From NCBI GenBank assembly GCA_022800215.1, contig JAAWPV010000001.1:1-45394 (forward strand): a DNA stretch of 45,394 nucleotides, read 5' to 3'. This stretch comes from Oscillospiraceae bacterium. Its GTDB lineage: Bacteria; Bacillota; Clostridia; Oscillospirales; Oscillospiraceae. This document shows positions 2,051 through 40,985 of the stretch, one piece after another. Under the pieces are notes generated by a model. That model ran no database searches, was not told the DNA's origin, and saw only the letters and a list, made by a program, of their open reading frames with translations. The position numbers were made by a program, and so were the translations under genes. Position 1 is the stretch's first letter. Each line of letters starts with the position of its first letter.

Positions 2051-2075
2051 TTATGTAAACCAATATTATGTAAAC
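2051..2075 (-). repeat. Two copies of the dispersed motif GTTTACATAA
   Basis: Exact copies at 2051-2060 and 2066-2075, same orientation, 15 bases apart, lying between cinA and the nitroreductase start and just upstream of its AGGAGG. Five further exact copies are found elsewhere in the window. Confidence 0.85.
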
Positions 2076-2095
2076 TAAGCGTCGAAACTCCGTCC

Positions 2096-3352
2096 CTATT
2101 CCAGCTCCAGGGGCAGGCCCATCAGGTGCCGCCGCACAAGGTCGAAGGCGTGGTTGGCGGCCAGCTGCCGCACCCGGCTCCGGGGTCCGGCGGCGTGGAC
2201 GGTGCGGACAAAGGTCCCGCCATCCCAGCTAAGGGCTACATACACCAGCCCCACCGGGTTGCCCCTCTCGTCGGGGCCGGGCCCGGCCACCCCGGTGGTG
2301 GCCACCGCCAGGTCGGTGTCCATCCGGGCCCGGACTCCCTCTGCCATAGCCTGGGCCACGGGGACGGAGACGGCCCCATATTCGTCCAGCATCTCCTGGG
2401 GCACCCCCAGGGCGCTGTGCTTCACTTCACTCCAGTAGCTCACCACGCCCCCCTTGTAGACGGCGGAGACCCCGCCCATGTCGGTGATGCGCTTGGGGAT
2501 GAGCCCGCCCGTGCAGCTCTCCGCCGAGGAGAGGGTGAGCCCCTTCTCCTTCAGAAGGCCGAAGCACACCGCTTCCAGGGAGGGCACGTCGGCGCCGTAG
2601 ACAAGGGGGCCGAACTGCTCCCGCAGCTCCTTTTCCACCGGGGCGATGAGGTCCAAAGCGGTCTGTGCGTCAGGAGCCTTGGCGGTGATGCGCAGCTCCA
2701 CCTCCCCCTCCTTGGCGTAGGGGGCCAGGGTGGGGTTCTGCATGGCGTTCATCTTATCCCGCAAAAGGGCCTCCACCGCCGACTCTCCCATGCCGAAGAT
2801 CCGCAGGGAGCGGCTGACGATGACCCCGTCGGTCAGGTCCCGGAGATAAGGCACCGCCCGCTCATGGAACATGGGAGTGCACTCGCTGGGGGGGCCAGGC
2901 AGCATGAGGACCCGGACGCCCTCGGCTTCAAAGCCGCAGCCCGGGGCGGTACCCCAGTCGTTCTGGAAGGGGACGCAGCCCTCAGGCAGGTAGGCCTGCT
3001 GATAATTGTTCTCCGTCATGGGCCGGTCCAGCCGTTGGAAGTATTCCTCTATCCGCCGGGCGGCCTCCTCGTTGTAAATGAGCTTTTTGCCGAAGCAGTC
3101 TGCCAGCACGTTCTTGGTCAGGTCGTCACAGGTGGGACCCAGCCCACCGGTGGTGATGATGATATCCGCCCGGCTTTTGGCGGTCTCCACCGCGGCCCGG
3201 AGCCGCTGGGGATTATCCCCCACCACGGTGTGGTAGTATACGTTGATACCCAGGGCGGAAAGCCCCTGGGAGAGCATCTGGGCGTCCGAGTTGACGATGT
3301 TGCCCAACAGCAGCTCGGTGCCCACGGCAATGAGTTCAGCGGTGTGCGTCAT
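2096..3352 (-). CDS. cinA: CinA: competence/damage-inducible protein, nicotinamide-nucleotide amidase
   Basis: A 418-residue two-domain CinA. The N-terminal MoCF/COG1058 domain (about 1-170) begins HTAELIAVGTELLLGNIVNS and has the TTGGLGPTCDDLT loop; in relatives this domain acts as an ADP-ribose pyrophosphatase. The C-terminal CinA/PncC domain (about 255-415) carries SSAESCTGGLI with the catalytic serine region near residue 277, and TTGVAGPGPDERG; it deamidates nicotinamide mononucleotide for NAD recycling. Length matches full-length CinA. The gene is monocistronic in appearance; an extended -10 (TGATAGAAT, 3377-3385 on the minus strand) lies close upstream. In some Firmicutes cinA is linked to recA and competence, but no such neighbour is seen here. 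Confidence 0.95.
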   Translation of the reverse strand: MTHTAELIAVGTELLLGNIVNSDAQMLSQGLSALGINVYYHTVVGDNPQRLRAAVETAKSRADIIITTGGLGPTCDDLTKNVLADCFGKKLIYNEEAARRIEEYFQRLDRPMTENNYQQAYLPEGCVPFQNDWGTAPGCGFEAEGVRVLMLPGPPSECTPMFHERAVPYLRDLTDGVIVSRSLRIFGMGESAVEALLRDKMNAMQNPTLAPYAKEGEVELRITAKAPDAQTALDLIAPVEKELREQFGPLVYGADVPSLEAVCFGLLKEKGLTLSSAESCTGGLIPKRITDMGGVSAVYKGGVVSYWSEVKHSALGVPQEMLDEYGAVSVPVAQAMAEGVRARMDTDLAVATTGVAGPGPDERGNPVGLVYVALSWDGGTFVRTVHAAGPRSRVRQLAANHAFDLVRRHLMGLPLELE

Positions 3353-3388
3353 AGCGGTCCCTTCCTTTCTCCCCCTATTCTATCACGT

Positions 3389-3430
3389 TTTCCCCCTTTT
3401 GGGGAGCCTTTTTCCCCCTTGGGGGAAAAA
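3389..3430. repeat. C5/G5 low-complexity palindromes between cinA and the M20 gene
   Basis: Two tandem units of T-run, C5, T-run, G-run occur, the second being a perfect palindrome of ten-base arms (TTTTTCCCCC / GGGGGAAAAA, 3409-3430) with a two-base centre. It lies between the M20 terminator and the cinA promoter and could be a second, back-up terminator. Confidence 0.5.
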
Positions 3431-3432
3431 GA

Positions 3433-3460
3433 GAGGGGCGCCGCGAAAGCGGCGCCCCTC
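3433..3460 (-). terminator. Terminator of the ABC importer/M20 operon
   Basis: A perfect 12-bp GC-rich stem (GAGGGGCGCCGC with its complement) closed by a tetraloop, followed on the minus strand by TCTTTTT. It begins 22 bases after the M20 stop codon and fits a factor-independent terminator. Confidence 0.85.
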
Positions 3461-3481
3461 GAAGGGAGTCCAAAGGAAAGA

Positions 3482-4933
3482 TCAGGTCAAATCGGGAATC
3501 ACAGGCACCGCGTCGGCGGGGATGGGGCTGGTGAAGCCCTCGGCGGTGTGCTTTTCAAACTCAGCCTTGGCTGCGGCGATGGTGTCGGGCTGGTTGAAAA
3601 GGTCGATGGTGGCGGCTGCCAGCACCTTGCCGGCGTGGATAACGGACTTCCGGCCGATGTCGGTCTTGCCCATGGACACGTTCTGCCAGGAGTGGCCGGG
3701 CGCGCCGTTGGCGAAGGAGACCACGTGGATCTGCCCGGTGGGGCACAGCCAGCTTACGTCGGCCACGTCGGTGGAACCGGCACTGTAAGCGTCGTCCGCC
3801 TGGTAGAGGGGCATCAGGAAGTCGTTGAGGGCGTGGCCGCACTTCTTTTGCAGCTCCCGAACCTCCTCGGCCAGGGACAGGCTGAACTTGGCGGCCATAC
3901 CGGTGGGCTCGTCGGCGCCGGGGTAGGTCTTGGCAAGGGTGTCGGCAAAGGCGTACTCCTCGGCGGTGTGGGTGGGCACGCCCAACTCCTGGAAGTTGTC
4001 GAAAAGAACCTTCTCCAGTACGTGGTTGGGGATGGTGTTGGAGGTGCCGTCAATAAAGACTTTTTCATAGGTGGTGCCCGTCATGAGGGCGGCGCCCTTG
4101 GCTACGTCGTCCACCCGCTTTTGAAGCTCGATGGCCCGGGCCACATGGGGGGAGCGGACCATATAGAGAACGCTGGCCTTGGACTGGACCACATTGGCGC
4201 TGATGCCGCCGCTGTTGGTGATGGCGTAGTGGATGCGGGCCCTGTCCTCCATATGCTCCCGGAGGAACTCTACACCAAAGTTCATCAGCTGCACCGCGTC
4301 CAGCGCGCTGCGGCCCCGCTCCGGGTTGCCGGCGGCGTGGGCGGCAACGCCGTGGAAGATGTACTGGGTCTGAATGCAGGAGTTGGAGGAGCCGGTGACC
4401 ACCTCATTGGCTCCGCCGGGGTGCCAGGTGAGGGCCACGTCAAGGTTTTTCCACAGTCCGTCCCGGGCCATAAAAGCCTTGGCGGCGCCGCCCTCCTCGC
4501 CGGGGCAGCCATAGAGGATGACCGTGCCGGAGATGCCGGCGGTTTCCAGATAGGCCTTGACGCCCAGAGCGGCAGCCAGAGCGCCGGCGCCCAGCATATT
4601 GTGGCCGCAGCCGTGACCGCAGCCGCCGGGGATCAGCTCCTCCTTTTCCAGAGAGCCGCCCTTCTGGGAGAGCCCGGACAGGGCGTCGTACTCAGCCAGC
4701 AAACCGATGTAAGGCCGGCCCGAGCCGAAGGAGGCGGAGAAGGCGGTGGGGATGTTGCAGATGCCCTTCTCCACGGTGAAGCCCTCCTTTTCCAGGACCT
4801 CACAGTACTTTTCGGCGGACTTGAACTCCTGAAGGGACAGCTCGGCGTACTCCCAGATGGAGTCGGAAACGTCGTTGATGACGGCGGCTTTGGCCTCGAT
4901 GGCGCTGATGGCGGCCTGCTTCTTCTGATCCAT
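3482..4933 (-). CDS. M20-family amidohydrolase (AbgB-like)
   Basis: A 483-residue zinc-type M20 peptidase/amidohydrolase close to p-aminobenzoyl-glutamate hydrolase subunit B and related aminoacyl amidases. Landmarks are LLAEYDALSGLSQ near residue 85, GCGHGCGHNMLGAGALAAAL with the metal-binding histidines near 110, the acidic PGEEGG (catalytic Glu region), AAHAAGNPERGRSALDA (dimerisation domain) and C-terminal GAPGHSWQ. The start at 4933 is chosen because AAAGGA sits nine bases upstream; TTG or ATG starts further up would overlap that box. It is the last gene of a binding protein-permease-ATPase-hydrolase order, 27 bases after the ATPase gene, so the importer probably brings in an N-acylated or aminobenzoylated amino acid or a dipeptide that this enzyme cleaves in the cytoplasm. 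The exact substrate is inference. Confidence 0.88.
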   Translation of the reverse strand: MDQKKQAAISAIEAKAAVINDVSDSIWEYAELSLQEFKSAEKYCEVLEKEGFTVEKGICNIPTAFSASFGSGRPYIGLLAEYDALSGLSQKGGSLEKEELIPGGCGHGCGHNMLGAGALAAALGVKAYLETAGISGTVILYGCPGEEGGAAKAFMARDGLWKNLDVALTWHPGGANEVVTGSSNSCIQTQYIFHGVAAHAAGNPERGRSALDAVQLMNFGVEFLREHMEDRARIHYAITNSGGISANVVQSKASVLYMVRSPHVARAIELQKRVDDVAKGAALMTGTTYEKVFIDGTSNTIPNHVLEKVLFDNFQELGVPTHTAEEYAFADTLAKTYPGADEPTGMAAKFSLSLAEEVRELQKKCGHALNDFLMPLYQADDAYSAGSTDVADVSWLCPTGQIHVVSFANGAPGHSWQNVSMGKTDIGRKSVIHAGKVLAAATIDLFNQPDTIAAAKAEFEKHTAEGFTSPIPADAVPVIPDLT

Positions 4934-6410: not shown

Positions 6411-6426
6411 ATTCATCTCTCCCGGA

Positions 6427-13311: not shown

Positions 13312-14346
13312 TCATCCCTCCAGAGCGAAGCTCTGCCCGAAGAGGCTGACGGACACCACCTCGGCCGGGTCGATGATCTCGGAAAGCCGGAAGCAGTACC
13401 GCCCCTGGTCCGCTTCCTGACAGTCGGTTTTGTAGGTGGTCAGCAGGAAATGGAACTCCCCCACCGGGACGGTCCTGCCATCCTCCAAGGTAAGGAAGGC
13501 TCTTTCCGGCCAATCCTCCCGTGTGCCGTGAAGGGCTGTGCTGTCCATGGATTCCAGATCGTCCTCTCCCTCGCCCAGTTCCCAAGCGAAGGAGAGGGGG
13601 GAGACGTAGAGGGAGGCGAGGGTCACCCGGTTGCCCCCTACCTCAATGGGCGTGTTGGGGGTCACATACCGGCCCGGGTCCTCCGTGGGCAGTGTTACGG
13701 TGCATTTCCAGCGGCCCTCTGCCAGGAGCTTCCCGTCTACATTGCTGTCGTACAGCCCCTCAAAGTCCAATGTCAGCTTGGCCCCCAGGAAGTTGAAATC
13801 CCCGTCGATGGTGTTGACATTCAGCAGGAGGGAAATGTGGTTGTCTGTGGGGTCCTCGTCCTCCAGCAGCTCCCAGCCTGTGCCCCAGCCATCCATCTTG
13901 CTCCCGTCGGGGGCGGTGGCCTTCACCGATTTGCCCAGGGAATAGTAATCCCCGTCCAGCACCGTCCCCTCCGGGGCGGTGAGGTCCATGAGGACCAGGG
14001 CGGAGTAACGGTCAGCCACCACCTGCCGCACATGGAGGGTGGTGCCCTGGTCGGTCAGCTCCTTGTCCACCACCATGGCGGCGGAGGACAAAAGCTCCTC
14101 CTGCTCCGGCCCTGCCCCGAAGTAGCTCAAAAGCCGCCGGTCCAGCCCGCTCACCACCGCGAAGGCGCAGGTGGTGAGCACCATGGCGGCCGCCAGTCCC
14201 GCCGCGGCCACTTTGGGCGCTCTGCGTCCTGTTTTCATATTGTTTGCCGTCCTTTCTTCCTGGAGGAGGCGCCTTAGCATGGCCTCCTCCCGGTCCCGGG
14301 AGGGTGTTACCTGGTCCAGGATTCGGTGCAGCTCCTTATACTCCAT
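13312..14346 (-). CDS. DUF4179-type membrane protein, probable anti-sigma factor
   Basis: A 344-residue protein with a cytoplasmic N-terminus of about 45 residues (ELHRILDQVTPSRDREEAML), one membrane helix at about 46-66 (VAAAGLAAAMVLTTCAFAVV), and a large beta-rich outer domain resembling DUF4179 proteins that are found after ECF sigma genes (RsiV/YhdL-like arrangement). The N-terminal part would hold the sigma factor. Sigma and partner overlap by 11 bases with the GGAGG inside the sigma gene, so they are translated together. A start at 14352 is possible, but the box is better spaced for 14346. The outer domain would sense an envelope signal; which one is not visible. Confidence 0.75.
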   Translation of the reverse strand: MEYKELHRILDQVTPSRDREEAMLRRLLQEERTANNMKTGRRAPKVAAAGLAAAMVLTTCAFAVVSGLDRRLLSYFGAGPEQEELLSSAAMVVDKELTDQGTTLHVRQVVADRYSALVLMDLTAPEGTVLDGDYYSLGKSVKATAPDGSKMDGWGTGWELLEDEDPTDNHISLLLNVNTIDGDFNFLGAKLTLDFEGLYDSNVDGKLLAEGRWKCTVTLPTEDPGRYVTPNTPIEVGGNRVTLASLYVSPLSFAWELGEGEDDLESMDSTALHGTREDWPERAFLTLEDGRTVPVGEFHFLLTTYKTDCQEADQGRYCFRLSEIIDPAEVVSVSLFGQSFALEG

Positions 14347-14827
14347 ACTCATTCGCCTCCAAAATCGTTTTTAGATGTGCCCGCCCCCGGAAAAGCCAGG
14401 AGCGGAGGGTGGCAGGCTTGGCGCCCATCATGCGGGCGGTCTCCTCGGTGGAGTAGCCCTGGTAATAGTGGAGGTAAATGGCCATCCGCTCCTTCTCGGG
14501 AAGGGAGAGAAGCAGCTCCCAGAGCTCGCCGTCCGACGGCTGTTCCCAGCTCAGGCTTTCCAGCTCGGTTTCCTCCGCCCGGGCTGTCCGCCACCAGTGC
14601 CTTAGCTGATTTTTGCATTCGTTCCGGGTGGTGACGATGAGCCAGGCCTTCTCATGCTCCGGATCACGAAAGGGCTCCTCCCGCTCCATCACCCTGCGAA
14701 AGACGGTGTGGCAGGCGTCCTCCGCGTCGGGCGCGTTTTTCAGCAGCATGAGGGCGATCTGATAGACCATACCCACCCGCCGCCGGTAGAGGCCGGCCAG
14801 TTCCTCTCCCGTATACGCACGTTTCAC
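14336..14827 (-). CDS. ECF-type RNA polymerase sigma factor
   Basis: A 163-residue sigma-70 group 4 factor. Region 2 includes LAGLYRRRVGMVYQIALMLL and DAEDACHTVFRRVME (core binding and -10 reading), and region 4 includes LLSLPEKERMAIYLHYYQGY and STEETARMMGAKPATLRSWL as the helix-turn-helix for -35 recognition. The start is a GTG at 14827 with AAAGGAGG eight bases upstream; an ATG further up lacks such a box. It is followed in overlap by its membrane partner gene. Such pairs usually regulate their own promoter and envelope functions; no autoregulated promoter could be assigned by eye. Confidence 0.93.
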   Translation of the reverse strand: MKRAYTGEELAGLYRRRVGMVYQIALMLLKNAPDAEDACHTVFRRVMEREEPFRDPEHEKAWLIVTTRNECKNQLRHWWRTARAEETELESLSWEQPSDGELWELLLSLPEKERMAIYLHYYQGYSTEETARMMGAKPATLRSWLFRGRAHLKTILEANEYGV

Positions 14828-14901
14828 GAAGGTCACCTCCTTTTTGCCTTTCTGATTATGACACAATTGAACCGGGGCAAATGTTGCGCAAAAAATGAAA
14901 A

Positions 14902-14934: not shown

Positions 14935-14944
14935 GTTTACATAA
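14935..14944 (+). repeat. Dispersed motif GTTTACATAA
   Basis: An exact copy in the 9-base space between the kinase-like stop codon and its terminator. A 17-base context (ATTGG + motif + TT) is identical to the copy at 2051-2060. Confidence 0.85.
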
Positions 14945-14953: not shown

Positions 14954-15556
14954 TTATGCCTTGATGAACTGAAGGATTTGTTCCACGGCGGTATCGATGC
15001 CCTTTCGGGAGGAATTGATGCACAGATCGTAATTGCTGGCGTCGTTCCACTTCCGGTCGGTGTGGAAGCTGTAGTAGGAAGCCCGGGCCTTATCCATCTT
15101 GCGCATATTCTCCTCTGCTTCCTTCTCTGTGACCCCATCCCGGTGACAGATACGCTGAATACGGTTTTCGTAGTCGGCGGAAATAAAGACCCGGATGAGG
15201 CCCGGCTTATCCCGGAGGATATAGTCGGCGCAGCGGCCCACAATGACGCAGCTACCCTTCTCCGCCACGCTGAGCACCGCATCCCGCTGGGCCTTCACGG
15301 CCATCTGGTCCACTGTCATGCTCTGGGAGCCGCCCAGCAGAGCATTTTGGCCCATGACCAGGGAGTAGAGGAAACTGTTGGTGGGCTTCTCGTCATAATC
15401 CTGGAGAAACTGGTGACTGAGACCGCTCTCCTTGGCGGCGATGGCCAAGAGCTCTTTATCATAATAGGGGATACCAAGGGCCTGGGCCACTTTCTTGCCG
15501 GTCTCCCGGCCTCCGCTGCCAAATTGACGCCCAATCGTAATGTAAATTTCTGCCAT
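14954..15556 (-). CDS. Cytidylate kinase-like family protein
   Basis: A 200-residue P-loop protein of the Cytidylate_kin2 (AAA_26) family. The N-terminus EIYITIGRQFGSGGRETGKK contains the nucleotide-binding loop GRQFGSGGRE, close to the G-x-x-G-S-G-K/R pattern of CMP kinases; SCVIVGRCADYILRDKPGLI and the Arg-rich lid NRIQRICHRDGVTEKEAEE follow, then KMDKARASYYSFHT and the C-terminal NYDLCINSSRKGIDTAVEQI. The family is widespread in clostridia and is distinct from essential Cmk; its true substrate is not established. AAGGAGG is nine bases before the ATG. It has its own extended -10 promoter and diverges from the FMN-binding lipoprotein gene. A very long open frame that continues upstream of this start is antisense to the lipoprotein gene and not real. 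Confidence 0.88.
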   Translation of the reverse strand: MAEIYITIGRQFGSGGRETGKKVAQALGIPYYDKELLAIAAKESGLSHQFLQDYDEKPTNSFLYSLVMGQNALLGGSQSMTVDQMAVKAQRDAVLSVAEKGSCVIVGRCADYILRDKPGLIRVFISADYENRIQRICHRDGVTEKEAEENMRKMDKARASYYSFHTDRKWNDASNYDLCINSSRKGIDTAVEQILQFIKA

Positions 15557-15620
15557 TTTGCAGGACCTCCTTTTGGTTAATACGCACAAACAGGGCGAAA
15601 GAAGCTCCCTGCCTATTTGT

Positions 15621-20601: not shown

Positions 20602-22119
20602 CTATTTCGCCATCCATCCCGTTGCCCGGTATTGCAGTGCCTCCGCAATGTGGGGTACTTGGATATTTTCACACCCGTCCAGATCGGCGATGGTCCGGGC
20701 CACCCGCAAAATGCGGTCATAGCCCCTCGCCGTCAGCCCCAGACGCTCAAAGGCCCCCTTCATAAGGTCCTGGCACCCCTCGTCCAGCGGGCAGAACTCC
20801 TCCAGCTCCGTGCGGCCCATCTGGGCGTTGCAGGGGATGCCCTCGGCCCCAAACCGCTTGGCCTGGACCGAGCGGGCGGCGTCTACCCGCTTCTTGATAC
20901 ACGCCGACGGCTCCCCGTCGGGTTTGTCCGACAGAGTGTCAAAGTCCGGGGGCGGCACGTCCACAATGAGGTCGATCCGGTCCAGCAGAGGCCCGGAAAT
21001 TTTATACTGGTACTTCTCCACGTCCTTCTGGCTGCACCTGCACCGGTCTGAATAGCCGTACCAGCCGCACTTGCAGGGGTTCATGGCGCACACCAGCATG
21101 AAGCGGGCGGGGAAGGTTTCGCTCCCCGCCGCCCGGGTGATCTGGACCTTGCCTTCCTCCATGGGCTGGCGCATGACCTCCAGCACGTCCTTGTGGAACT
21201 CGGGCAGCTCGTCCAGAAAGAGGACCCCATGGTGGGCCAGGGAAATTTCTCCGGGCCGAATCAGGGGGTTGCCCCCTCCTGCCATGCCCATGGCGGACAC
21301 GGTGTGGTGGGGGGAGCGGAAGGGCCGCTGGGTCAGCAAGGGCTGCTCCTTGGTGGTAAGCCCCAGCACCGAGTGGACCGCCGTGGCCTCCAGTGCCTCC
21401 CGCTCCGAAAGGCCGGGGAGAATGGAGGGCAGCCGCTTGGCCAGCATGGATTTGCCCGACCCCGGCGGGCCGATCATCAGGACGTTGTGGCCACCGGCGG
21501 CGGCAATTTCCAGCGCCCGTTTCACGTTCTCCTGGCCCTTCACCTCGGAAAAATCGGGGACGGGAGCCTGGTTTCCACCGGGAGCCCAGGGCTGGGCGGG
21601 GTCGATGAGAGCCTCTCCCTTCAGGTGGGCAACCAACTGTCCCACAGTCTCCACCGGGTAGACCGTCATGCCCTTGGCCAGGGTGGCTTCGGGGGCGGCG
21701 TCGGCGGGGACAAAGAGCCGCCGGATCCCCGCTTTTTGTGCCGCCAGGGCCATAGGCAGCATCCCGGGCACGCTCCGCAATGCCCCCGAGAGGGACAGCT
21801 CCCCCAGAAAGGCGCAGTCCCCCTCGGGCCTGGGGAGCTGCCCCCCGGCGGCCAGGATACCCACCAAAATGGGCAGGTCGTAGACCGTGCCGCCCTTTTT
21901 CCGGTCGGCGGGGGCCAGATTCACTGTGATCCGGGACACGGGGAACTGAAAGCCGCAGTTCTTCACCGCTGAGCGGACCCGGTCCCGGGCCTCCTTGACG
22001 GCGGTGTCGGGAAGGCCCACGATCTCAAAATTGGGCAGGCCCCCGGAAAGGTCGCACTCGCACAGTACCTCATAGCCCTCCACCCCGTGGAGGCCCAGCG
22101 AACGCACCTGGGTCATCAT
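20602..22119 (-). CDS. YifB/ComM Mg-chelatase-like AAA ATPase
   Basis: A 505-residue protein of the YifB/ComM family. The N-terminal ChlI domain (about 1-125) contains VEVEC-like VLCECDLSGGLPNFEIVGLPD and ITVNLAPADRKKGG. The AAA core has Walker A GPPGSGKSMLAKRLP, the Mg-chelatase-type segment RPFRSPHHTVS, Walker B GVLFLDELPEF and a zinc-like Cys cluster CAMNPCKCGWYG. The C-terminal domain (LGLTARGYDRILRVARTIADL) is also diagnostic. In Gram-negatives ComM is a hexameric helicase that extends branch migration in natural transformation; in clostridia it is usually uncharacterised. GGAGG is ten bases before the ATG, and a GTTTACATAA motif lies about 26 bases upstream. Confidence 0.95.
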   Translation of the reverse strand: MMTQVRSLGLHGVEGYEVLCECDLSGGLPNFEIVGLPDTAVKEARDRVRSAVKNCGFQFPVSRITVNLAPADRKKGGTVYDLPILVGILAAGGQLPRPEGDCAFLGELSLSGALRSVPGMLPMALAAQKAGIRRLFVPADAAPEATLAKGMTVYPVETVGQLVAHLKGEALIDPAQPWAPGGNQAPVPDFSEVKGQENVKRALEIAAAGGHNVLMIGPPGSGKSMLAKRLPSILPGLSEREALEATAVHSVLGLTTKEQPLLTQRPFRSPHHTVSAMGMAGGGNPLIRPGEISLAHHGVLFLDELPEFHKDVLEVMRQPMEEGKVQITRAAGSETFPARFMLVCAMNPCKCGWYGYSDRCRCSQKDVEKYQYKISGPLLDRIDLIVDVPPPDFDTLSDKPDGEPSACIKKRVDAARSVQAKRFGAEGIPCNAQMGRTELEEFCPLDEGCQDLMKGAFERLGLTARGYDRILRVARTIADLDGCENIQVPHIAEALQYRATGWMAK

Positions 22120-22144: not shown

Positions 22145-22154
22145 TTATGTAAAC
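22145..22154 (-). repeat. Dispersed motif GTTTACATAA
   Basis: An exact copy about 26 bases upstream of the yifB start, same orientation as the gene, just ahead of its ribosome binding region. Confidence 0.85.
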
Positions 22155-22346: not shown

Positions 22347-23237
22347 ATGGAAAAACGGTATCTGCCCCCCGTTCTTGCCCTTGCGGGCGGCGGAGTGGGC
22401 TTTGCGCTACGGAAATGGCAGCTTGCCACCGCCTTTGAACCGGAAACCGGCCTGGCCGTCTCCGGGATGCCCGCCACCTGGGCCTTGCTGGGCTGGTCGG
22501 CGCTGGTGGCCTTGCTGGTGATCTGTTTCAACTGGAAGAACAAGGAACGGATGGCCTGGGACCGGGCCTTCGCCGGGGCCCGGGGGAACGCGGTGTTTAT
22601 GACGGCGGTGATTCTGGGAGCCTTCCTCCTGCTGGCCAGCGCCGGCGCCGAGGCGGTGAGCTTCTCGGTGACTTACCAGATGGACGCAGGCAACGAGCTT
22701 TTTGGGGCCCAGGTGGCTTCCGCAGTCCTGCCGCCCTTGCGGATCGGCCTGTGTCTTGCCGGCCTGCCTTGCATCATTTTGTGGGTGAAGCACCTGAACC
22801 AGGGCAGCGAAAAATGCAAGGAGAGCCTGGCCCTTCTGGAACTGTGCTTCCTCTTCTGCGTGTGGCTCATCTCCGACTATCAGGTCCGGGCTGCCGACCC
22901 GGTGGTCCAGGACTATATGTACGAGGTCTTCGCCATCGTATGCGGCCTCATGGGCATCTACTTTGTGACCAGCTACTCCTTTCAGGAGGGCAAGCCCCGC
23001 AGGACCCTGTTCTTTTGCCTGATGGGGGCCTACTTCTCTCTGGTGACCCTGGCCGACCAGCATTCTCTGACAGATATTTTCCGTTACGGCTTCGTGGTGC
23101 TGTTCCTCATCGCCCACGCCGTCCTGCTCCTTCAGGAGCATCCCCCCGCCCCAGAGCCGGAAGCGGCGGAAGAGACAGAAACGAAAGACCCGGCTGCGCC
23201 GGAAACAAAGGAAAGAGAGGCTGAAGAAAATGCCTGA
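22347..23237 (+). CDS. Polytopic membrane protein of unknown function, coupled to metG
   Basis: A 296-residue integral membrane protein with about eight hydrophobic segments (for instance TWALLGWSALVALLVICF, AVFMTAVILGAFLLLASAG, IGLCLAGLPCIILWV, FGFVVLFLIAHAVLLL-like last helix) and a charged, Pro/Glu-rich cytoplasmic tail of about 35 residues (PPAPEPEAAEETETKDPAAP). I do not recognise the family. AGAGGA stands nine bases before the ATG at 22347. Its stop overlaps the first codons of metG by eight bases, so the two are translationally coupled; a similar gene before metG suggests either chance operon membership or a housekeeping envelope role. Nothing in the sequence gives an enzymatic motif. 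Confidence 0.8.
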   Translation: MEKRYLPPVLALAGGGVGFALRKWQLATAFEPETGLAVSGMPATWALLGWSALVALLVICFNWKNKERMAWDRAFAGARGNAVFMTAVILGAFLLLASAGAEAVSFSVTYQMDAGNELFGAQVASAVLPPLRIGLCLAGLPCIILWVKHLNQGSEKCKESLALLELCFLFCVWLISDYQVRAADPVVQDYMYEVFAIVCGLMGIYFVTSYSFQEGKPRRTLFFCLMGAYFSLVTLADQHSLTDIFRYGFVVLFLIAHAVLLLQEHPPAPEPEAAEETETKDPAAPETKEREAEENA

Positions 23238-25203
23238 GAAATTCTATATCACCACCCCCATCTACTACCCCTCGGACAAACTTCATATCGGCCACACCTA
23301 CTGCACCGTGGCTACCGACGCCATCGCCCGTTATAAGCGGCTCCAGGGCTACGACGTCATGTTCCTCACCGGCACCGACGAACACGGTCAAAAGATCGAG
23401 GACAAGGCCAAAGAGGCGGGCGTTACCCCCAAAGAGTTCGTGGACAATATCGTAGAGGGGTCCCGGGGCGTGAAGGACCTGTGGAAGCTGATGAACATCT
23501 CCAACGACCGCTTCATCCGCACCACCGACGACTACCATGTCTCCGCCGTCCAGAAGATCTTCCGGGCCATGTACGAAAAGGGGGACATTTACAAGGGCTC
23601 CTACAAGGGAAAATACTGCAAGCCCTGTGAGTCCTTCTGGACCGAGTCCCAGCTGGTGGACGGCAAGTGTCCCGACTGCGGCCGGGAGGTCGTCGATGCC
23701 GAGGAGGAGGCTTACTTCTTCCGGGCCTCCAAGTACGCCGACCGGGTCCGGGACCTGCTGGTGAACACCGATTTCCTGGAGCCCCGAAGCCGGGTCAATG
23801 AGATGGTGAACAACTTCATCGACTGCGAGGGAGGGCTTCAGGACCTGTGCGTGTCCCGGACCAGCTTCACCTGGGGGGTCCCTGTGGACTTTGACCCGGG
23901 CCACGTGGTCTATGTGTGGCTGGACGCCCTCTTCAACTACATGACCGCCCTGGGCTATCAAAACGACAAGTATGGCGATGTGGAGAAGTTCTGGCCTGCC
24001 GACGTCCACTTTGTGGGCAAGGAGATCGTCCGGTTCCACGCCATCTACTGGCCTGCCTTCCTCATGAGCATGGACCTGCCCCTTCCCAAGAAGGTCTACG
24101 GCCATGGCTGGCTTTTGCTGGACGGGGGCAAAATGAGCAAGAGCAAGGGCAACGTGGTGGATCCCTACATCCTGGCGGAGAAGTTCGGGGTGGACGCCCT
24201 GCGGTTTTTCCTGCTGCGGACCTTCCCCTTCGGCTCCGACGGCAACTTCTCCAACGAGGCCCTCATTCAGACCATCAACGTGGACCTGGCCAACGACCTG
24301 GGCAACCTGGTGAGCCGGACCACTGCCATGGTGGAGAAGTACTTTGGCGGCACCCTGCCCCTGGAGCAGGCCGGGGACGAGGCCATGGACGGGGAGCTGC
24401 TGGCGATGGCGTCCTCCCTCCGGGACCGGTATGAGGAGCAGATGGAGGCCTACCAGTTCCAGAACGCGCTGGAGGCCGTCTTTAAGGTCATCCAGCGGGC
24501 CAACAAGTATATCGACGAGAACGCCCCCTGGGCCCTGGCAAAGGACATGGAGCAGAACGGCTCCCGGCTGGGGCGGGTCCTCTACAACCTGCTGGAGACC
24601 ACCCGGATCTGCGGCGTCCTCCTGACCCCCTTTATGCCCGAGAGTATGGAGAGGCTCTTTGCCCAAGTGGGCGCCGGTAAGGCCGCCCAGACCTGGGACA
24701 GTGCCGCTGTCTGGGGTGTTCTGCCGGAGAATGTCACTGTCACCAAGGGGGACAACCTCTTCCCCCGCATCGACACGGAGAAGGCCATCGCCGAGCTGGA
24801 GGAAGCCGCCGAGGTTGCCAGAAAGGCCGCCCTGCCCGACATTGAGATCGAGCCTCAAACCGAGGAGAAGGTAGACTTTGAGACCTTCTGCAAGAGTGAT
24901 TTCCGGGCGGTGAAGGTGAAGGCCTGTGAGGCGGTGAAGAAGAGCGATAAGCTCCTCCGCTTCACCCTGGACGACGGCACGGGAGTGGACCGGCAGATCC
25001 TCTCGGGCATCCATAAATGGTATGAGCCACAGGACCTGGTGGGCAAGACCCTCATTGCCATTGTCAACCTGCCCCCCCGGAAAATGATGGGCCTGGAGAG
25101 CTGCGGGATGCTCATTTCCGCCACCCACACGGAGAAGGGGGAGGAGCAGCTCCACCTTCTTATGGTGGACGACGCCATCCCCGCTGGGGCCAAGCTGTGC
25201 TAA
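23230..25203 (+). CDS. metG: Methionyl-tRNA synthetase
   Basis: A 657-residue class I synthetase that charges tRNA-Met. HIGH is residues 19-22 (DKLHIGHTY), KMSKS 301-305 (GGKMSKSKGN). The knuckle in the connective peptide has Cys130, Cys133, Cys147 and Cys150 (CKPC...CPDC), expected to bind one zinc. The anticodon-binding domain is about 390-520. The C-terminal Trbp111-like tRNA-binding domain (about 550-657: DFRAVKVKACEAV, LSGIHKWYEPQDLVGKT, PPRKMMGLESCGMLISA) supports dimerisation. The length is usual for the clostridial form. It starts inside the stop region of the membrane protein gene and ends just before a GTTTACATAA motif and a strong terminator. No T-box leader is visible upstream, so regulation of that type is unlikely here. 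Confidence 0.97.
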   Translation: MPEKFYITTPIYYPSDKLHIGHTYCTVATDAIARYKRLQGYDVMFLTGTDEHGQKIEDKAKEAGVTPKEFVDNIVEGSRGVKDLWKLMNISNDRFIRTTDDYHVSAVQKIFRAMYEKGDIYKGSYKGKYCKPCESFWTESQLVDGKCPDCGREVVDAEEEAYFFRASKYADRVRDLLVNTDFLEPRSRVNEMVNNFIDCEGGLQDLCVSRTSFTWGVPVDFDPGHVVYVWLDALFNYMTALGYQNDKYGDVEKFWPADVHFVGKEIVRFHAIYWPAFLMSMDLPLPKKVYGHGWLLLDGGKMSKSKGNVVDPYILAEKFGVDALRFFLLRTFPFGSDGNFSNEALIQTINVDLANDLGNLVSRTTAMVEKYFGGTLPLEQAGDEAMDGELLAMASSLRDRYEEQMEAYQFQNALEAVFKVIQRANKYIDENAPWALAKDMEQNGSRLGRVLYNLLETTRICGVLLTPFMPESMERLFAQVGAGKAAQTWDSAAVWGVLPENVTVTKGDNLFPRIDTEKAIAELEEAAEVARKAALPDIEIEPQTEEKVDFETFCKSDFRAVKVKACEAVKKSDKLLRFTLDDGTGVDRQILSGIHKWYEPQDLVGKTLIAIVNLPPRKMMGLESCGMLISATHTEKGEEQLHLLMVDDAIPAGAKLC

Positions 25204-25213
25204 TTATGTAAAC
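25204..25213 (-). repeat. Dispersed motif GTTTACATAA
   Basis: An exact copy that begins at the base following the metG stop codon, in opposite orientation, directly before the metG terminator. Confidence 0.85.
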
Positions 25214-25581: not shown

Positions 25582-26844
25582 TCACCCCTCCACGTCCACT
25601 ATCCGCACATACCGCCGCAAGGGATACTCGCCGTCGTGTCCCTCCCCGGGGAAGGTGTCGGACATGGACCCCGCCCGGGTGATCCGGGTGAGGCCTGCCC
25701 GGGCCAGCAGCCCGGTAAGTTCCTCCCGGTCCTCCGGCGCACAGAGGAGCCCGGCGGTCTGGAGCCGGCCTTTCTGGCGGCGGAGAGCGCCCATCAGGTC
25801 CCTCCGGGGCAGCAGCTTCACCAGCACGTTTCCCTCCATGGGGGACAGCTCCAGCTCCCCATGGGGCCGGAAGGTCACCGAGCAGCCCCGGCCGGGAAAG
25901 TGGACCTCCCCCTCCGTCCTGCCCTCCACGATCCGCTCCAGAAGGGCGGTGTGGCCCGAGAGGGAGGCTCCTGCCCCGGCCCAGGGACCGGGCCGCTCTT
26001 CGGCGGCCTTTTCCAAATAGGGAAGGAATATGCGGCAGAAGGAAAGGGCCTCCTCCCGGTTATCGCTGTCCAGAAAAATGACCTGGCAGGAGGAGCAAAG
26101 CCGCTGATTGGTCCCGATGATGTGCCGGGCCAGGGCGGAGAGCTCCCCCTCCACATCTTCATAGCCCGCCACATAGGCAAAGCCCAGCCGGTGGCCCCAC
26201 TCCATAAGCTTGCACCCCGCCGGGGCCATGGCCCGGAGGCTTTGGATGGCACTGTCGCCGCCCCAGGTGACGATACCGTCCGCCAGGGAAGCCAAAAGTT
26301 TTATGTCAACCACTTCTTTGGAGGGCAGGTCGAAGGCACAGAGGTAGGGGGCCAGCCGGGGTTCCTGTTCCACCAGCAGGGAGAAAGCGGCCAGGGAAAG
26401 GCCCTTGTCCCCGTGGGGCAGCTTCACCAGGTTCACATTGCCGGTGAGAAGCCCCTCCAGGGCGCTGTAAACGGGCAGGCCGGGCATGTTGCCTGCCGCC
26501 ACATGGAGGAGGGTGCCCAGAGGCAGCACCCGGGCGGCAGTGCGGCCGTGGGTTTGGGCAGCGAAGGGCGCTCCTCCCAGCTCGGTGCGGAGCTTTTGTT
26601 CCAAGGTCTCCCGGCGGAGCATGGGCAGCAGCTCCGCCAGCGTTGCCCCGGCGGGGAGGTACCGGGCCAGCAGGGCGTCAAATTCTCCGCCCGCCAGCCG
26701 CCGGCCCAGGGCATCTACCGCGGCGATGACCGTTTCGGACTCCAAAGGCGGGCCCATGCGGGTGGCGTTGATGGCCTTTTCCAACCCGGTGAGGACCTTT
26801 TTCCGCTCCGAATCGGGAAGCAGCTTGCCGTTTGCGAAGATCAT
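25582..26844 (-). CDS. LuxC-type acyl-CoA/acyl-protein reductase
   Basis: A 420-residue enzyme of the LuxC family (fatty acyl reductase, aldehyde dehydrogenase-like fold). Landmarks are THGRTAARVLPLGTLLHVAA, GNMPGLPVYSALEGLL (cofactor-binding region, GNVPG-like), TWGGDSAIQSLRAM, and the catalytic Cys in NQRLCSSCQVIF (Cys250, matching the CSS of LuxC). It would reduce an acyl group held by its partner to a fatty or other aldehyde with NADPH. The start overlaps the LuxE-like stop as ATGA, showing tight coupling. No luciferase (luxAB) or thioesterase (luxD) genes are present, so light production is not implied. The aldehyde may feed a lipid, a natural product or an electrophilic signal; the product is unknown. 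Confidence 0.88.
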   Translation of the reverse strand: MIFANGKLLPDSERKKVLTGLEKAINATRMGPPLESETVIAAVDALGRRLAGGEFDALLARYLPAGATLAELLPMLRRETLEQKLRTELGGAPFAAQTHGRTAARVLPLGTLLHVAAGNMPGLPVYSALEGLLTGNVNLVKLPHGDKGLSLAAFSLLVEQEPRLAPYLCAFDLPSKEVVDIKLLASLADGIVTWGGDSAIQSLRAMAPAGCKLMEWGHRLGFAYVAGYEDVEGELSALARHIIGTNQRLCSSCQVIFLDSDNREEALSFCRIFLPYLEKAAEERPGPWAGAGASLSGHTALLERIVEGRTEGEVHFPGRGCSVTFRPHGELELSPMEGNVLVKLLPRRDLMGALRRQKGRLQTAGLLCAPEDREELTGLLARAGLTRITRAGSMSDTFPGEGHDGEYPLRRYVRIVDVEG

Positions 26845-27989
26845 TGCGTCTTCCCTCCTTCTATGCCGAAACCCTCATCGCCGCCCAAAAGCTCAGCGGC
26901 CCCGGCGGCGCAGGTCTGGATGTCCGTCATGCCCACCCGGCCCAGAATGGTGAGGTAGGGGCTTTGGATGCCGCAGCCGCAGTCGGCGCCGGGGGTGAGA
27001 TAGCCCAGGTCGTCGGTCATGACGCTTAGGGTGGGGGTGGCGGTCATAAGGGGGGAAATGAGGTTGATAAGGCCCACCTGCCCCATGGGCAAGGGGTCCA
27101 GGGTGTCCGGGTCCCGGATGATGACCCGCCCGTAGATGGGGATGTGGAAGTGGTGCTTTTGGCAGACATTGTAGAAAACCGGGTGCTCCACCGCCCCGAA
27201 AAGCTCGTTGATATTTTCCCGGGGAATGCCCAGCACCTTTTCCACCAGGGCGTAGAGGGTCCCTTTGTCCACCTCCTGGGCGTAGTGCTGCTTCCAGCCC
27301 CCCGCCAAAATAATGCGGGAGCCTTTGGGAAGAGAGACTTTGAGGCCCAATTCCTCCATCCGCTGAAGGCCGAACCAGAGGTAGGAGGGAAAACCGATGA
27401 CTCTTGTGGGGAACCGGGAGCTTTCCAGCCGTTTCAGGGCCTTGGCGATGGAGTCCAGATCGGGGACGTAGGCCCCGTCCACCATGTTGAGGGCGTAGGT
27501 CCGGCTGAGAGGCGGGGAGAAGTGGGTGAGGCCGAACATGGTCCGGGTGACCCCGGTGTGGTTTGCTTTGTTGGGCTTGTAGCCCAGGATGACGCAGTGG
27601 GCGGGCACCGGGGAGGCCAGGCGGTGGTAAAGTCCCAGCCGCACCACCATGGGGGCCTCCGCCAGGATGGAGCCCCAGTCAAACCCGATTTGGCTGAATT
27701 TTCCGCTGGTGCCTGAGGAGGTGACCTTCATGGCCATGCGCCACTGGGGCATGGAGAAAAGGGCCTTGCGCTTGAAAAAGAGGGTGGGGATGACGGGAAT
27801 TTTGGCAAGGTCCTCCATGGTGCGAAGCTGGTCAGGGGAAAAGTTCAGATGCCGGCAGATGGCGGCATAGCCGGGGCAGTGCCTGATGTGGTAGGCGGCA
27901 TTGTCCCGGCAAGCACGGAGAAAGGCTTCGTCAGACCGGGGCAGGTCGTAGGGCTTACCCTTCCAGAACAGCCGTTGGCGGGAGAGCAT
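26841..27989 (-). CDS. LuxE/PaaK-family acyl-protein synthetase
   Basis: A 382-residue adenylating enzyme of the LuxE/PaaK branch of the ANL superfamily. The phosphate-binding loop is SSGTSGKFSQ (91-96); RIILAGGWKQHYAQ and NELFGAVEHPVFYNVC are the mid-domain motifs, and IYGRVIIRDPDTLDPLPMGQVGLINL precedes a Cys-rich C-terminus (GADCGCGIQSPYLTILGRVG, later DIQTCAAG) where LuxE proteins carry the acyl-accepting Cys. It activates a carboxylic acid with ATP and passes it, as a thioester, to the reductase encoded next. AAGGAGG is eight bases before the ATG at 27989. The pair forms an acid reductase module; substrate chain length is not readable. Confidence 0.88.
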   Translation of the reverse strand: MLSRQRLFWKGKPYDLPRSDEAFLRACRDNAAYHIRHCPGYAAICRHLNFSPDQLRTMEDLAKIPVIPTLFFKRKALFSMPQWRMAMKVTSSGTSGKFSQIGFDWGSILAEAPMVVRLGLYHRLASPVPAHCVILGYKPNKANHTGVTRTMFGLTHFSPPLSRTYALNMVDGAYVPDLDSIAKALKRLESSRFPTRVIGFPSYLWFGLQRMEELGLKVSLPKGSRIILAGGWKQHYAQEVDKGTLYALVEKVLGIPRENINELFGAVEHPVFYNVCQKHHFHIPIYGRVIIRDPDTLDPLPMGQVGLINLISPLMTATPTLSVMTDDLGYLTPGADCGCGIQSPYLTILGRVGMTDIQTCAAGAAELLGGDEGFGIEGGKTQ

Positions 27990-28051
27990 GGCAGCCACCT
28001 CCTTGTGCCCCTGCAAAAACGGCGCCCATCGCAGAGACATCATACTTGATG

Positions 28052-28061
28052 GTTTACATAA
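28052..28061 (+). repeat. Dispersed motif GTTTACATAA
   Basis: An exact copy in the gap between the aminopeptidase stop (28068) and the LuxE-like gene, in opposite orientation to both. Confidence 0.85.
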
Positions 28062-28067: not shown

Positions 28068-29309
28068 TCAGGCGAACTCCTCCGCCCAGTCGCCGTTCAC
28101 GAAGATGGGCACCTCGGTGCCGTCCTTCATGATGCCGGTGACGTTCATGTCAGCAGTGCCGATCATGAAGTCGCAGTGGGTGGCGGATACGTTCAGCTTA
28201 TGGGCGAGAAGCTCCTCCTCCTTCATGTCGCTGGCCCCCGCCACGCAGAAGGGGTAGCACCGGCCCAGGGCCAGATGGCAGGCGGCGTTCTCGTCAAAGA
28301 GGACGGAGTAGAAGAGAAGGCCCATCTGGGAGATAGGGGAGCTCTTGGGCACCAGGGCGGCTTCGCCCAGGTAGCAGGAGTTTTCGTCGGTTTCGATGAT
28401 GTGGCTGAGCTGTTCCTTGCCGGACTTTGCGTCCCACTCCACCGCCCTGCCGTTTTCAAACCGGATCCAGAAGTCCTCAATAAGGCTGCCCCGGTGACTC
28501 AGGGGCAGGGAGGAGTGAACGACGCCCTCCGTCCGGGTCCGGTCGGGGGAGGTGAAAATTTCCTCGGTGGGGATGTTGGGGTAATAGTAGACCCCCTCCT
28601 CGTTCTCAATGCCGCCGCCCCACCAGCAGTGTCCGGGCAGCAGGCCCACGGTCAGGTCGGTGCCGTTGGAAGCGGTGTAGCGGACTGCGTCAAACTGCTT
28701 CTCGGTGAGCCGGGTCGTCCGGCGGCGGAAGTTTTCGGTGTGGTCCGCCCAGGCCTGGGCGGGGTCGGGACCGTCGGCCCGGGCCACCTTCAAAATGGCC
28801 TCCCACAGCTTGTCCACCGCCTCCTCCTCGGGTAGGTCGGGAAACACCTTCTTGGCCCAGGCGGGGGTGGCGATGCCGCAGCCGCAGCGGGTGGATTTTC
28901 CCTTGCCAAGTCCGGCGCTGTACTTGGGGCACTCCCGTCGGGTGGCCTTCTGCTTGGCGGTGAGGCGCTTGGGGTCCACCCCCTCCATGCCGCCGAACAT
29001 ACCGCCGCCCAGCCGCAGGACGGCGGCGCCCTTCTCGGCGGCGGTTTCCAGCATGGTCTTTTCCCAGGCGGGAATGGTCTCGAAAAGCTCGTCCGCACCA
29101 TGGATGAGCCGCTGACGGTCGATCTCCGGGTCACTCCACTGCACCGTCACATCCTTGGCTCCCAGCTCCCAGGCGGCCTCCACCGCCAGACGAACAAAGG
29201 GGGCGCAGTCCACCTGGGCGGAAATCAGGATCTCCTGGCCGGGCTGAAAGGAACAGCCGGTCCCCACCAACAGTTTGGCGTACTTGTAAAGGCGTTCTTT
29301 TTCTATCAT
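28068..29309 (-). CDS. M29-family aminopeptidase (AmpS/PepS type)
   Basis: A 413-residue cytoplasmic metallo-aminopeptidase of family M29. The N-terminus (LYKYAKLLVGTGCSFQPGQEILI) is the family opening. Metal and catalytic ligands of the family fit NIPTEEIFTSPDR (Glu), the Glu in ENSCYLGEAALVP, CHLALGRCYPF (His, Tyr region) and SATHCDFMIGTADM (His, Asp). The length is typical. It removes N-terminal residues from short peptides, two metals per subunit, as a dimer. It lies 78 bases upstream of the LuxE-like gene in the same direction; they may share a message, but functions are probably unrelated. AAAGGAAG precedes the ATG. Confidence 0.92.
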   Translation of the reverse strand: MIEKERLYKYAKLLVGTGCSFQPGQEILISAQVDCAPFVRLAVEAAWELGAKDVTVQWSDPEIDRQRLIHGADELFETIPAWEKTMLETAAEKGAAVLRLGGGMFGGMEGVDPKRLTAKQKATRRECPKYSAGLGKGKSTRCGCGIATPAWAKKVFPDLPEEEAVDKLWEAILKVARADGPDPAQAWADHTENFRRRTTRLTEKQFDAVRYTASNGTDLTVGLLPGHCWWGGGIENEEGVYYYPNIPTEEIFTSPDRTRTEGVVHSSLPLSHRGSLIEDFWIRFENGRAVEWDAKSGKEQLSHIIETDENSCYLGEAALVPKSSPISQMGLLFYSVLFDENAACHLALGRCYPFCVAGASDMKEEELLAHKLNVSATHCDFMIGTADMNVTGIMKDGTEVPIFVNGDWAEEFA

Positions 29310-39410: not shown

Positions 39411-39443
39411 AGAGCTTTTGAAAGCTTTGGGAAGGAGAACAGT

Positions 39444-40313
39444 ATGAAGCGTACGCCCCGGCAGCTTGCGAAAAACTATCTGATGATTGCTCTGGGAGCC
39501 GGTATTTACGCCCTGGCCTTTGACGGCTGTTTTGTGCCCAACGGCATTGCCTTTGGCGGGGTCACCGGCCTTGCCCAGATCGTCCACTTTTTCCTACCGG
39601 GCCTTCCTGTGGGTACGCTGGTGTTTCTACTCAACATCCCCCTTTTCCTGCTGGGATGGAAGCTCTTTGGAAAACATATGCTCCTCTCCTCTCTCTTTGC
39701 CATGACAATGTCCTCCCTGCTGATCGACGGTTTGGCGTCCCTCTACACCTTCCCGCCCATGGAGGATAAACTGCTGGCCTGCCTGGTGGGGGGCGTGCTG
39801 CTGGGGGTGAGTTTGGGCATCATCTTCCTCCAGGGGACCACCACCGGGGGCACCGAGATCGTGGCCCGGCTTTTAAAGCTGAAATTTGCCTGGCTTCCCA
39901 TGGGCAAGCTGCTCCTTGCCGCCGACCTCGTGGTTGTGAGCGTGGTGGCGGTGGTGTTTCGCAGCGTGGGCACCGCCCTCTACGGCGTGGTGGCCCTCTA
40001 CCTCTCCACCTTTGTCATGGACCAGGTCCTCTACGGCATGAAAAACGCCAAGGTGGCCTATATCATCTCCGACCGCCCCGAGGATATCGTCAAAGTCATT
40101 TTGAACGATTTGGACCGGAGCGTCACCTACCTTCAGGGGGAGGGCGGCTACACCGGCCAGAGCAAAAAGGTCATCCTCTGCGCCTTCAAGCAGCGGGAGA
40201 TCGTGGCCATTAAGGAGACGGTGCGGCAGGTGGACCCCAACGCCTTTATGATCGTCACTTCCGCCCATGAGGTTCTGGGAGAGGGGTTTGGGAGCTATCA
40301 TGGAGAACTGTGA
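39444..40313 (+). CDS. YitT-family membrane protein (DUF161/DUF2179)
   Basis: A 289-residue protein with about five membrane helices (LMIALGAGIYALAFDGCFVP, VGTLVFLLNIPLFLLGWKL, LLACLVGGVLLGVSLGIIF and others), the conserved loop GTTTGGTEIVARLL and the soluble C-terminal DUF2179 (AYIISDRPEDIVKVILNDL; REIVAIKETVRQVDPNAFM). It matches YitT/YpjC/YqfU of Bacillus. The substrate is unknown; relatives have been suggested to act as transporters. It starts 33 bases after the topoisomerase A gene with GGAAGGAGA before the ATG. Confidence 0.92.
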   Translation: MKRTPRQLAKNYLMIALGAGIYALAFDGCFVPNGIAFGGVTGLAQIVHFFLPGLPVGTLVFLLNIPLFLLGWKLFGKHMLLSSLFAMTMSSLLIDGLASLYTFPPMEDKLLACLVGGVLLGVSLGIIFLQGTTTGGTEIVARLLKLKFAWLPMGKLLLAADLVVVSVVAVVFRSVGTALYGVVALYLSTFVMDQVLYGMKNAKVAYIISDRPEDIVKVILNDLDRSVTYLQGEGGYTGQSKKVILCAFKQREIVAIKETVRQVDPNAFMIVTSAHEVLGEGFGSYHGEL

Positions 40314-40340
40314 GAAAAGACAGGACGTTCGCGCCGGTAA

Positions 40341-40364
40341 GTTGACATAATGAAGTAGACATAA
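40341..40364 (+). repeat. Two diverged copies of the GTTTACATAA-like motif
   Basis: GTTGACATAA (40341-40350) and GTAGACATAA (40355-40364), 14 bases apart and in tandem just upstream of the AAGGAGGAG of the LUD gene; one and two mismatches to the exact motif. Confidence 0.55.
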
Positions 40365-40382
40365 TTAGAAGGAGGAGCCCAA

Positions 40383-40985
40383 ATGCCGGACTATGAGAAG
40401 CTGACAAAGGCACTGGAAGAACACGGTTTTGCGGTGTCCCGGTTCGCCACTGCCCAGGAGGCGGCAATTTACATAAATAATAAATTGGATGGCGTGACCG
40501 TGGGTATCGGCGGCTCGGTGACGGTGCAGGAGATGGGGCTTTACGACCTTCTTTTCCCACACAATGAGGTTTTTTGGCACTGGGCGGAGGGGGCGGCCCC
40601 CGATACCCAGGCCAAGGCCGCACAGGCGGAAGTTTACATAACGTCGGCAAACGGCCTTGCCGAGACAGGGGAGATCATCAACATCGACGGGGGCGGCAAC
40701 CGGGTCTCTTCTACCCTCTACGGCCACAAAGCGGTCTACTTTGTGGTGGGGGCAAACAAAATTGCCCCCGACTTTGATTCTGCCCTCTGGCGGGCCCGAA
40801 ACATCGCCGCCCCCAAAAACGCCCAGCGGCTGGGCCGGAAGACCCCCTGCGCGGTGAAAGGGGACAGGTGCTACGACTGCAAAAGCCCGGAACGGATCTG
40901 CGGGGCCTGCGTGACATTGTGGAAGAAGCCCAAGACCATCCCTCATGCTGAGGTGATCTTGATCGACGAGGAATTAGGGTATTGA
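40383..40985 (+). CDS. LUD-domain protein (lactate utilisation LutC/YkgG-like)
   Basis: A 200-residue protein of the LUD_dom family. The fold is indicated by LDGVTVGIGGSVTVQEMGL, AEVYITSANGLAETGEIINI with the conserved G-x-x-x-E-T-G-x-I/T motif, and GGNRVSSTLYGHKAVYFVVG. Near the C-terminus is a Cys set CYDCKSPERICGACVTLW that may bind metal. LUD proteins form part of L-lactate oxidation complexes, but single proteins like this are common in clostridia with unknown substrate; partners LutA/LutB are not near. GAAGGAGGAG precedes the ATG. Inside the gene are one exact (40632) and one near copy (40467) of the motif GTTTACATAA. Confidence 0.88.
   Translation: MPDYEKLTKALEEHGFAVSRFATAQEAAIYINNKLDGVTVGIGGSVTVQEMGLYDLLFPHNEVFWHWAEGAAPDTQAKAAQAEVYITSANGLAETGEIINIDGGGNRVSSTLYGHKAVYFVVGANKIAPDFDSALWRARNIAAPKNAQRLGRKTPCAVKGDRCYDCKSPERICGACVTLWKKPKTIPHAEVILIDEELGY
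40632..40641 (+). repeat. Dispersed motif GTTTACATAA inside the LUD gene
   Basis: The only exact copy within a coding sequence (codons for Val-Tyr-Ile-Thr). A one-mismatch copy ATTTACATAA lies 165 bases upstream at 40467-40476, also in frame as Tyr-Ile. Confidence 0.8.

Follow-up and report, generated by a model that had tools for sequence, protein, structure and literature searches.

A ten-letter word dispersed through an Oscillospiraceae genome is a probable half-site of the recombinase XerD

The first 45,394 nucleotides of contig JAAWPV010000001.1 from an Oscillospiraceae bacterium (assembly GCA_022800215.1; forward strand, hereafter the window) contain repeated copies of the 10-mer GTTTACATAA, the word under study. 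We propose that this word is probably a dispersed half-site of the tyrosine recombinase XerD, that its copies would serve as docking points for chromosome organisation, and that a pair of them would control the xerD gene itself. This reading is based on the identity of the word with the XerD arm of a known dif site, its enrichment, the positions at which its variants differ, its conservation within genes, the pair found upstream of xerD, the lack of enrichment in near-complete genomes devoid of XerD, and a terminus-ward placement in two relatives. Binding of the word by XerD is, judging from its letters, well supported; unloading of SMC at the terminus in the window's genus is not well supported.

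The complement of the word, (A)TTATGTAAAC(T), is identical to the XerD arm of Bacillus subtilis dif, matching it at 12 of 12 bases. The reverse complement extended by one base on each side, ATTATGTAAACT, is the exact complement of AGTTTACATAAT and ends the dif site confirmed by experiment in B. subtilis, where it constitutes the right (XerD) arm plus one base (PMC3025954). By its letters the word belongs to the class of XerD arms, whose B. subtilis member is TTATGTAAACT and whose letters vary at arm positions 7 and 10; in other phyla, dif sites have been predicted that end in TTATGTTAACT, TTATGTAAACC, TTATGTAAAGT and TTATGTAAACT (PMC2731167). The sequence tested from the window's genus (the window's own genome, G000, and two further genomes, G002 and G011) contains 67 exact copies where 0.36 would be expected. 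Of the one-letter variants that occur four times or more, those enriched are T>G (32 vs 0.83 expected) and T>A (6 vs 0.08) at word position 4, and ATTTACATAA, a G>A change at position 1 (9 vs 0.41). Word positions 4 and 1 correspond to arm positions 7 and 10, where published arms vary (TTATGTTAAAT, TTATGTCAAGT, TTATGTTAACT, TTATGTAAAGT), the exact letter change behind G>A being absent from the published arms compared. At orthologous positions, 8 of 13 alignable in-gene sites keep GTTKACATAA between G000 and G011, with flanks 0.69-0.81 identical, and three of these eight differ by a T/G swap; the stretches of G011 and of two relatives, G340 and G214, were partly chosen for holding copies, which makes 8/13 an upper estimate. 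Several in-gene copies are, on this alignment, conserved as DNA words.

A recount confirmed the seven exact copies in the window at the positions and on the strands listed in the preliminary description of this DNA, where shuffled sequences hold 0.02 on average and 1 at most; allowing one mismatch raises the count to 10, where 0.49 would be expected. Inspection by eye likewise bore out that five copies extend to ...AAT, that those at 2051 and 14935 share 17 bases, and that diverged copies stand at 40341, 40355 and 40467, and a one-mismatch copy absent from the earlier list, GTTGACATAA, lies at 26301 on the minus strand. The half-sites of the window are:

2051..2060, minus strand: half-site GTTTACATAA, proximal member of a direct pair of 15-bp period; the ribosome-binding site of a nitroreductase-family gene (1536-2033, minus) follows closely.
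2066..2075, minus strand: half-site GTTTACATAA, distal member of the 15-bp pair with 2051.
14935..14944, plus strand: half-site GTTTACATAA, flanked by a cytidylate-kinase-like gene on the minus strand, whose stop is at 14954, and by a sigma-70-family gene (14336-14866, minus).
22145..22154, minus strand: half-site GTTTACATAA; 26 bp further on, a YifB-family Mg chelatase-like ATPase gene (20602-22119, minus) starts.
25204..25213, minus strand: half-site GTTTACATAA, directly after the metG stop codon (23230-25203, plus).
26301..26310, minus strand: variant half-site GTTGACATAA, within a LuxC-family gene; the orthologous place in G011 is without it.
28052..28061, plus strand: half-site GTTTACATAA, with a minus-strand gene on each side (the stop of 28068-29309 and the start of 26841-28043).
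40341..40350, plus strand: variant half-site GTTGACATAA, first of a direct pair of exactly 14-bp period, before a LUD-domain gene (40383-40985, plus).
40355..40364, plus strand: degenerate half-site GTAGACATAA with two mismatches, second of the 14-bp pair with 40341.
40467..40476, plus strand: variant half-site ATTTACATAA, within the LUD gene.
40632..40641, plus strand: half-site GTTTACATAA, within the LUD gene.

The window thus has one 15-bp pair (2051/2066) and one pair (40341/40355) with the 14-bp geometry that is commonest upstream of xerD.

The assembly of the window's genome (77.5% complete, 1.96 Mb, 84 contigs) carries 35 copies of the word, whereas the reversed word occurs once; more than half of these copies (20) are on the window's own 132-kb contig, a concentration that equal density would give with p about 5e-15. 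In sequence from three species (contig C25 of G000 and fetched parts of G002 and of G018, the last from another genus), GTTTACATAA exceeds its expectation under a third-order Markov model more than any other 10-mer with five or more occurrences. Across the order we searched 99 genomes, counting the window's own, and found the word in 96. Many genomes of the family hold 20-44 copies, usually with far fewer reversed words; some genomes of the same family and genus are nearly without copies. The preliminary description placed the copies almost always between genes, which holds for the window (6 of 7) but not genome-wide, where 18/35 copies in G000, 6/23 in the parts of G002 and 14/34 in those of G018 are intergenic. 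Measured against the 9-12% of the DNA that is intergenic, a bias is present throughout, though weaker than in the window. The copies within genes (17/35, 17/23 and 20/34, respectively) occur on both strands, in-gene GTTKACATAA being antisense in 18/23 cases in G000, 15/21 in G002 and 9/24 in G018. All these figures depend on gene calls from a crude in-house script based on codon usage; at least one of its genes is misplaced (14978-15580, a stretch for which Pfam supports a gene on the minus strand). In a distant relative (L031:1480-1530), a motif copy was seen by eye in the loop of a terminator-like hairpin.

Copy number was then set against the presence of the recombinase. An XerD match (E 1e-40) is found in 248 of 287 family genomes, a set limited to genomes of 95% completeness or more except for the window's own, which, incomplete at 77.5%, gave no XerD match. 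Twenty of the 39 genomes without a match were listed directly and the other 19 inferred by list subtraction. To guard against false absences, the comparison used only the 109 of the 287 genomes with a completeness of at least 98%. There, the 15 genomes without XerD hold 30 copies in total against 47 of the reversed word, and none of them reaches ten copies, whereas the 94 genomes with XerD hold 1265 copies against 265, 42 of them having at least ten (Mann-Whitney p 6e-6). These genomes are not independent, as 13 of the 15 lacking XerD fall in three genera (g44, g46, g90). XerD-negative genomes make up 7/7 of g44, 11/22 of g46 and three of g90, and at least one XerD-negative genome, G060, has kept the second Xer recombinase.

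The xerD gene is itself preceded by half-sites. The XerD of the family passes the NCBIfam TIGR02225 equivalog cut-off (348 vs 329.6 bits), and the solved structure that it matches best is XerD 1a0p (E 1.7e-60). We surveyed the best 80 of at least 584 confirmed stretches; 11 of the 80 had too little sequence upstream and were set aside. Of the remaining 69 relatives, 62 have a half-site in the 2 kb that precede xerD, and 41 have half-sites paired directly at 13-15 bp; among the 44 spacings in this range, 38 are exactly 14 bp. By comparison, reversed sequence gave a half-site in 7/69 and no pair, and the region downstream of xerD in 3/60 and no pair. The seven relatives without a half-site are Aneurinibacillus, one Thermoanaerobacteraceae, one Fermentithermobacillaceae, an unplaced Bacillota and three Oscillospiraceae or Ruminococcaceae. 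In our G-numbered genome set, half-sites precede xerD in 12 of the 12 genomes with enough upstream sequence (that of G002 was too short to judge), and 11 of these have the 14-bp pair if degenerate partners are counted, the spacing in G049 being 25 bp. In G053, an XerD-bearing genome with few copies of the word, the pair before xerD is built with the variant ATTTACATAA. Of ten XerD-bearing genomes that are closed or almost so, eight have an exact copy at 0.8 or 1.6 kb upstream of xerD. The gene between the upstream copy and xerD is SpoIIM by Pfam in three of six tested. Taken together, many gut bacteria of this family seem, from their sequences, to carry dozens of half-sites plus a pair before xerD.

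The parallel with dif may extend in part to complete sites. Six genomes of the genus (G001, G002, G003, G005, G007 and G008) have one 28-bp dif-like site each, with two XerD-type arms around a 6-bp centre and at most three mismatches (L121:1501-1528 and the orthologues in L119, L122, L123, L125 and L126), and in all six it lies within the coding sequence of what seems to be the same acyltransferase gene (MBOAT by Pfam in G002). In this form, with inverted 11-bp arms and a 6-bp centre, the site occurs in 6 of the 16 genomes G000-G015; G014 has two weaker matches and the other nine have none. Our search, which finds near-palindromic sites only, gave no dif-like site in the window's own incomplete assembly or among the window copies, and none was present in the MBOAT gene read in the window's genome, probably a different paralogue, or in the G011 stretch read. 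In G049 (L127/L139), a dif-like palindrome directly follows a second Xer-type recombinase gene, an arrangement that recalls single-recombinase Xer systems; a dif-like match in G029 is actually a direct pair. Compared with B. subtilis dif, served by RipX/CodV (XerD/XerC), the half-site letters are identical over 12 bases, and the inverted pair with a 6-bp centre recurs in the six genomes and in G049. Unlike dif, most copies here are lone half-sites or direct pairs, and the dif-like pair has two XerD-type arms and, in the six genomes, sits in an acyltransferase gene. No classical XerC arm was found here, scans of the fetched sequence for an XerC-type arm beside the copies giving nothing convincing.

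To place the sites on the chromosome, we located the terminus by GC skew and gene strand in G214 and G340 (20 stretches) and in G011 (40 stretches), at about 0.40 Mb, 2.0-2.1 Mb and 1.7 Mb, respectively; in G304, G334 and G191 it was taken as the antipode of dnaA only, with rounded genome lengths. The origin is marked by dnaA and parS-like sites in closed genomes. For closed genomes, GTTGACATAA was listed as a site only where a T follows it, and copies before xerD were removed before the position test. On this basis the sites lean towards the terminus in G214 (n=11, p 0.003) and G340 (n=21, p 0.002). Sites resembling parS, with at most one mismatch, are present in 13 of 13 genomes searched. 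G014 stands out with eleven copies of the parS variant TGTTCCACGTGGAACA, one with a mismatch, over seven contigs (C3, C4, C7, C20, C31, C48 and C67); six other genomes of the window's genus have fewer, 2-6 parS-like sites each.

Several observations weigh against assigning the word to XerD and to chromosome organisation. Within genes, G011 does not keep 5 of the 13 sites compared. Nine of the 39 XerD-negative genomes hold at least ten copies, all of them at most 97% complete and the window's own included, and 52 of the 94 XerD-bearing genomes hold fewer than ten, G010 of the same genus just one; since over half of the XerD-bearing genomes are thus poor in copies, XerD is necessary at most, and not sufficient. 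The other two of the ten closed or almost closed genomes, G222 and G341, lack an exact copy upstream of xerD. Only 1 of 60 genomes gave a match to a classical Firmicutes dif (ACTTCCTATAA-N6-TTATGTAAACT, at most three mismatches), and that match is a palindromic site. As for position, the terminus bias is weak and not significant in G304 (n=20, p 0.09), not significant in G334 (n=8, p 0.26) and G191 (n=4, p 0.73), and reversed in G011. There, leaving aside the copy before xerD, all 18 sites are in the origin half (p 8e-5), although parS-like sites stand at most 60 kb from the origin.

According to Karaboja et al. (2021), XerD-binding sites (XDS) reportedly direct SMC unloading in the B. subtilis terminus. 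Unloading of SMC by XerD at this terminus is also described elsewhere (PMC12322038, PMC8242196, PMC9564211, PMC13220808, PMC8669397, PMC13342612, PMC10945525). The system studied here resembles XDS, a likeness judged on the number and placement of XerD-type sites, in that several to many XerD-type sites are present in a chromosome, terminus-ward in G214 and G340. It is unlike XDS in the origin-half sites of the closed genome of the window's genus, in the several sites kept within genes and in the 14-bp pair before xerD. One could suppose that the B. subtilis arrangement holds unchanged in all these bacteria, the window's species among them, and that the copies are XerD sites at which SMC is unloaded close to the terminus. 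The lean in G214 and G340 and the parS-like sites near dnaA in closed genomes are consistent with such a view, as is the idea that several sites per zone are needed (PMC10945525). We nevertheless regard it as doubtful: in G011, the only closed genome of the window's genus examined, placement is opposite, the xerD-upstream copy being the only one found near the terminus, and the three further closed genomes show no significant bias. Moreover, the copy-rich contigs C25, C77, C8, C43, C70 and C48 of the window's genome mostly match site-bearing origin-half regions of G011 (C7 and C67 gave no match in the sampled part of G011), which contradicts, for the window's genus, our initial expectation that such contigs represent the terminus. 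The B. subtilis terminus-unloading model, carried over unchanged, would fit some genera but not the window's, where the G011 sites are in the origin half. Dispersed short sites for a condensin-acting protein are also a feature of matS/MatP in the E. coli terminus (PMC8669397, PMC10945525), with a different protein and a different word. Among the titles and abstracts listed from open-licence PubMed Central text, none describes these sites or the xerD pair in this group.

Alternatively, the word could be the operator of a global transcription factor whose regulon includes the SpoIIM-like gene and xerD, its likeness to a dif arm being coincidental. Intergenic enrichment would agree with this, and so would the position of the xerD pair upstream of a promoter-like -35/-10 in several genomes (by eye) and that of both window pairs before genes. 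However, about half or more of the copies are in genes, on both strands, the window genes beside copies share no common function, the word matches the B. subtilis XerD arm at every base and varies where arms vary, and near-complete XerD-less genomes are without enrichment; on balance such an operator is improbable, and the regulon of one pathway was rejected, as the neighbours are mixed. The footprint of a small mobile repeat or insertion-element target is highly improbable. The word is short and dispersed, and a few distant loci such as L037 have several degenerate copies close together, but no flanks are shared beyond about 12 bp (by eye), the orthologous in-gene positions, the one alignment in which empty sites were sought, show substitutions and nothing else across the word, and no transposase was seen by eye beside clustered copies in eight loci, where no family search was made. 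Insertion-sequence ends (IS21-like) were rejected as an explanation of these distant clusters, the eight loci holding ordinary genes by eye. Chance or composition bias is negligible, with nothing found in its favour and with the window count, the top rank of the 10-mer and the lower reversed-word totals against it.

The preliminary description had offered a global-regulator site, a chromosome-organisation site and a mobile footprint. The second, in the form of putative XerD half-sites, is best supported; the third is disfavoured by the little that copies share beyond 12 bp and by orthologous in-gene positions that differ by point changes; and a regulatory part is possible at xerD itself. Based on the above data, we infer XerD binding, SMC unloading and autoregulation from sequence analysis and propose the following mechanism. 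The putative half-sites would be dispersed as lone copies, as direct pairs, mostly of 14 bp, and, in some genomes of the genus, as a single dif-like arrangement of two inverted half-sites around a 6-bp centre. XerD would bind lone half-sites without recombination, marking zones of the chromosome, and by analogy with B. subtilis it would act there on SMC complexes loaded at parS. The position of the pair before the SpoIIM-like and xerD genes suggests that XerD could sense or control its own expression, which would match its supply to the number of sites. We further envisage XerD as a self-monitoring organiser of the chromosome in this order of gut bacteria, in which the conserved 14-bp pair controls SpoIIM-like/xerD and the SMC control zone is movable, lying at the terminus in some genera and flanking the origin in the window's genus, where SMC tethers would be removed early along the arms and not at the terminus; this extended scheme is rather unlikely.

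Some neighbours of the window copies deserve mention in their own right. At 25582-28043, a LuxC-family acyl-CoA reductase gene adjoins a gene with a weak LuxE ligase match, below the model cut-off, and the copies at 25204 and 28052 flank these two genes in inverted order. At 13312-14866, a small sigma-70-family gene stands beside a putative membrane-protein gene (by eye), possibly its partner.

If the word is indeed an XerD half-site, a protein known mainly for chromosome dimer resolution would have many docking sites in a large and mostly uncultivated family of gut bacteria, some of them conserved within coding sequences. From the pair upstream of xerD one would predict a control loop, of which no description came up in the literature searched. 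Lastly, the different placement of the sites in the window's genus would turn the location of condensin unloading into a question that can be compared between related species.

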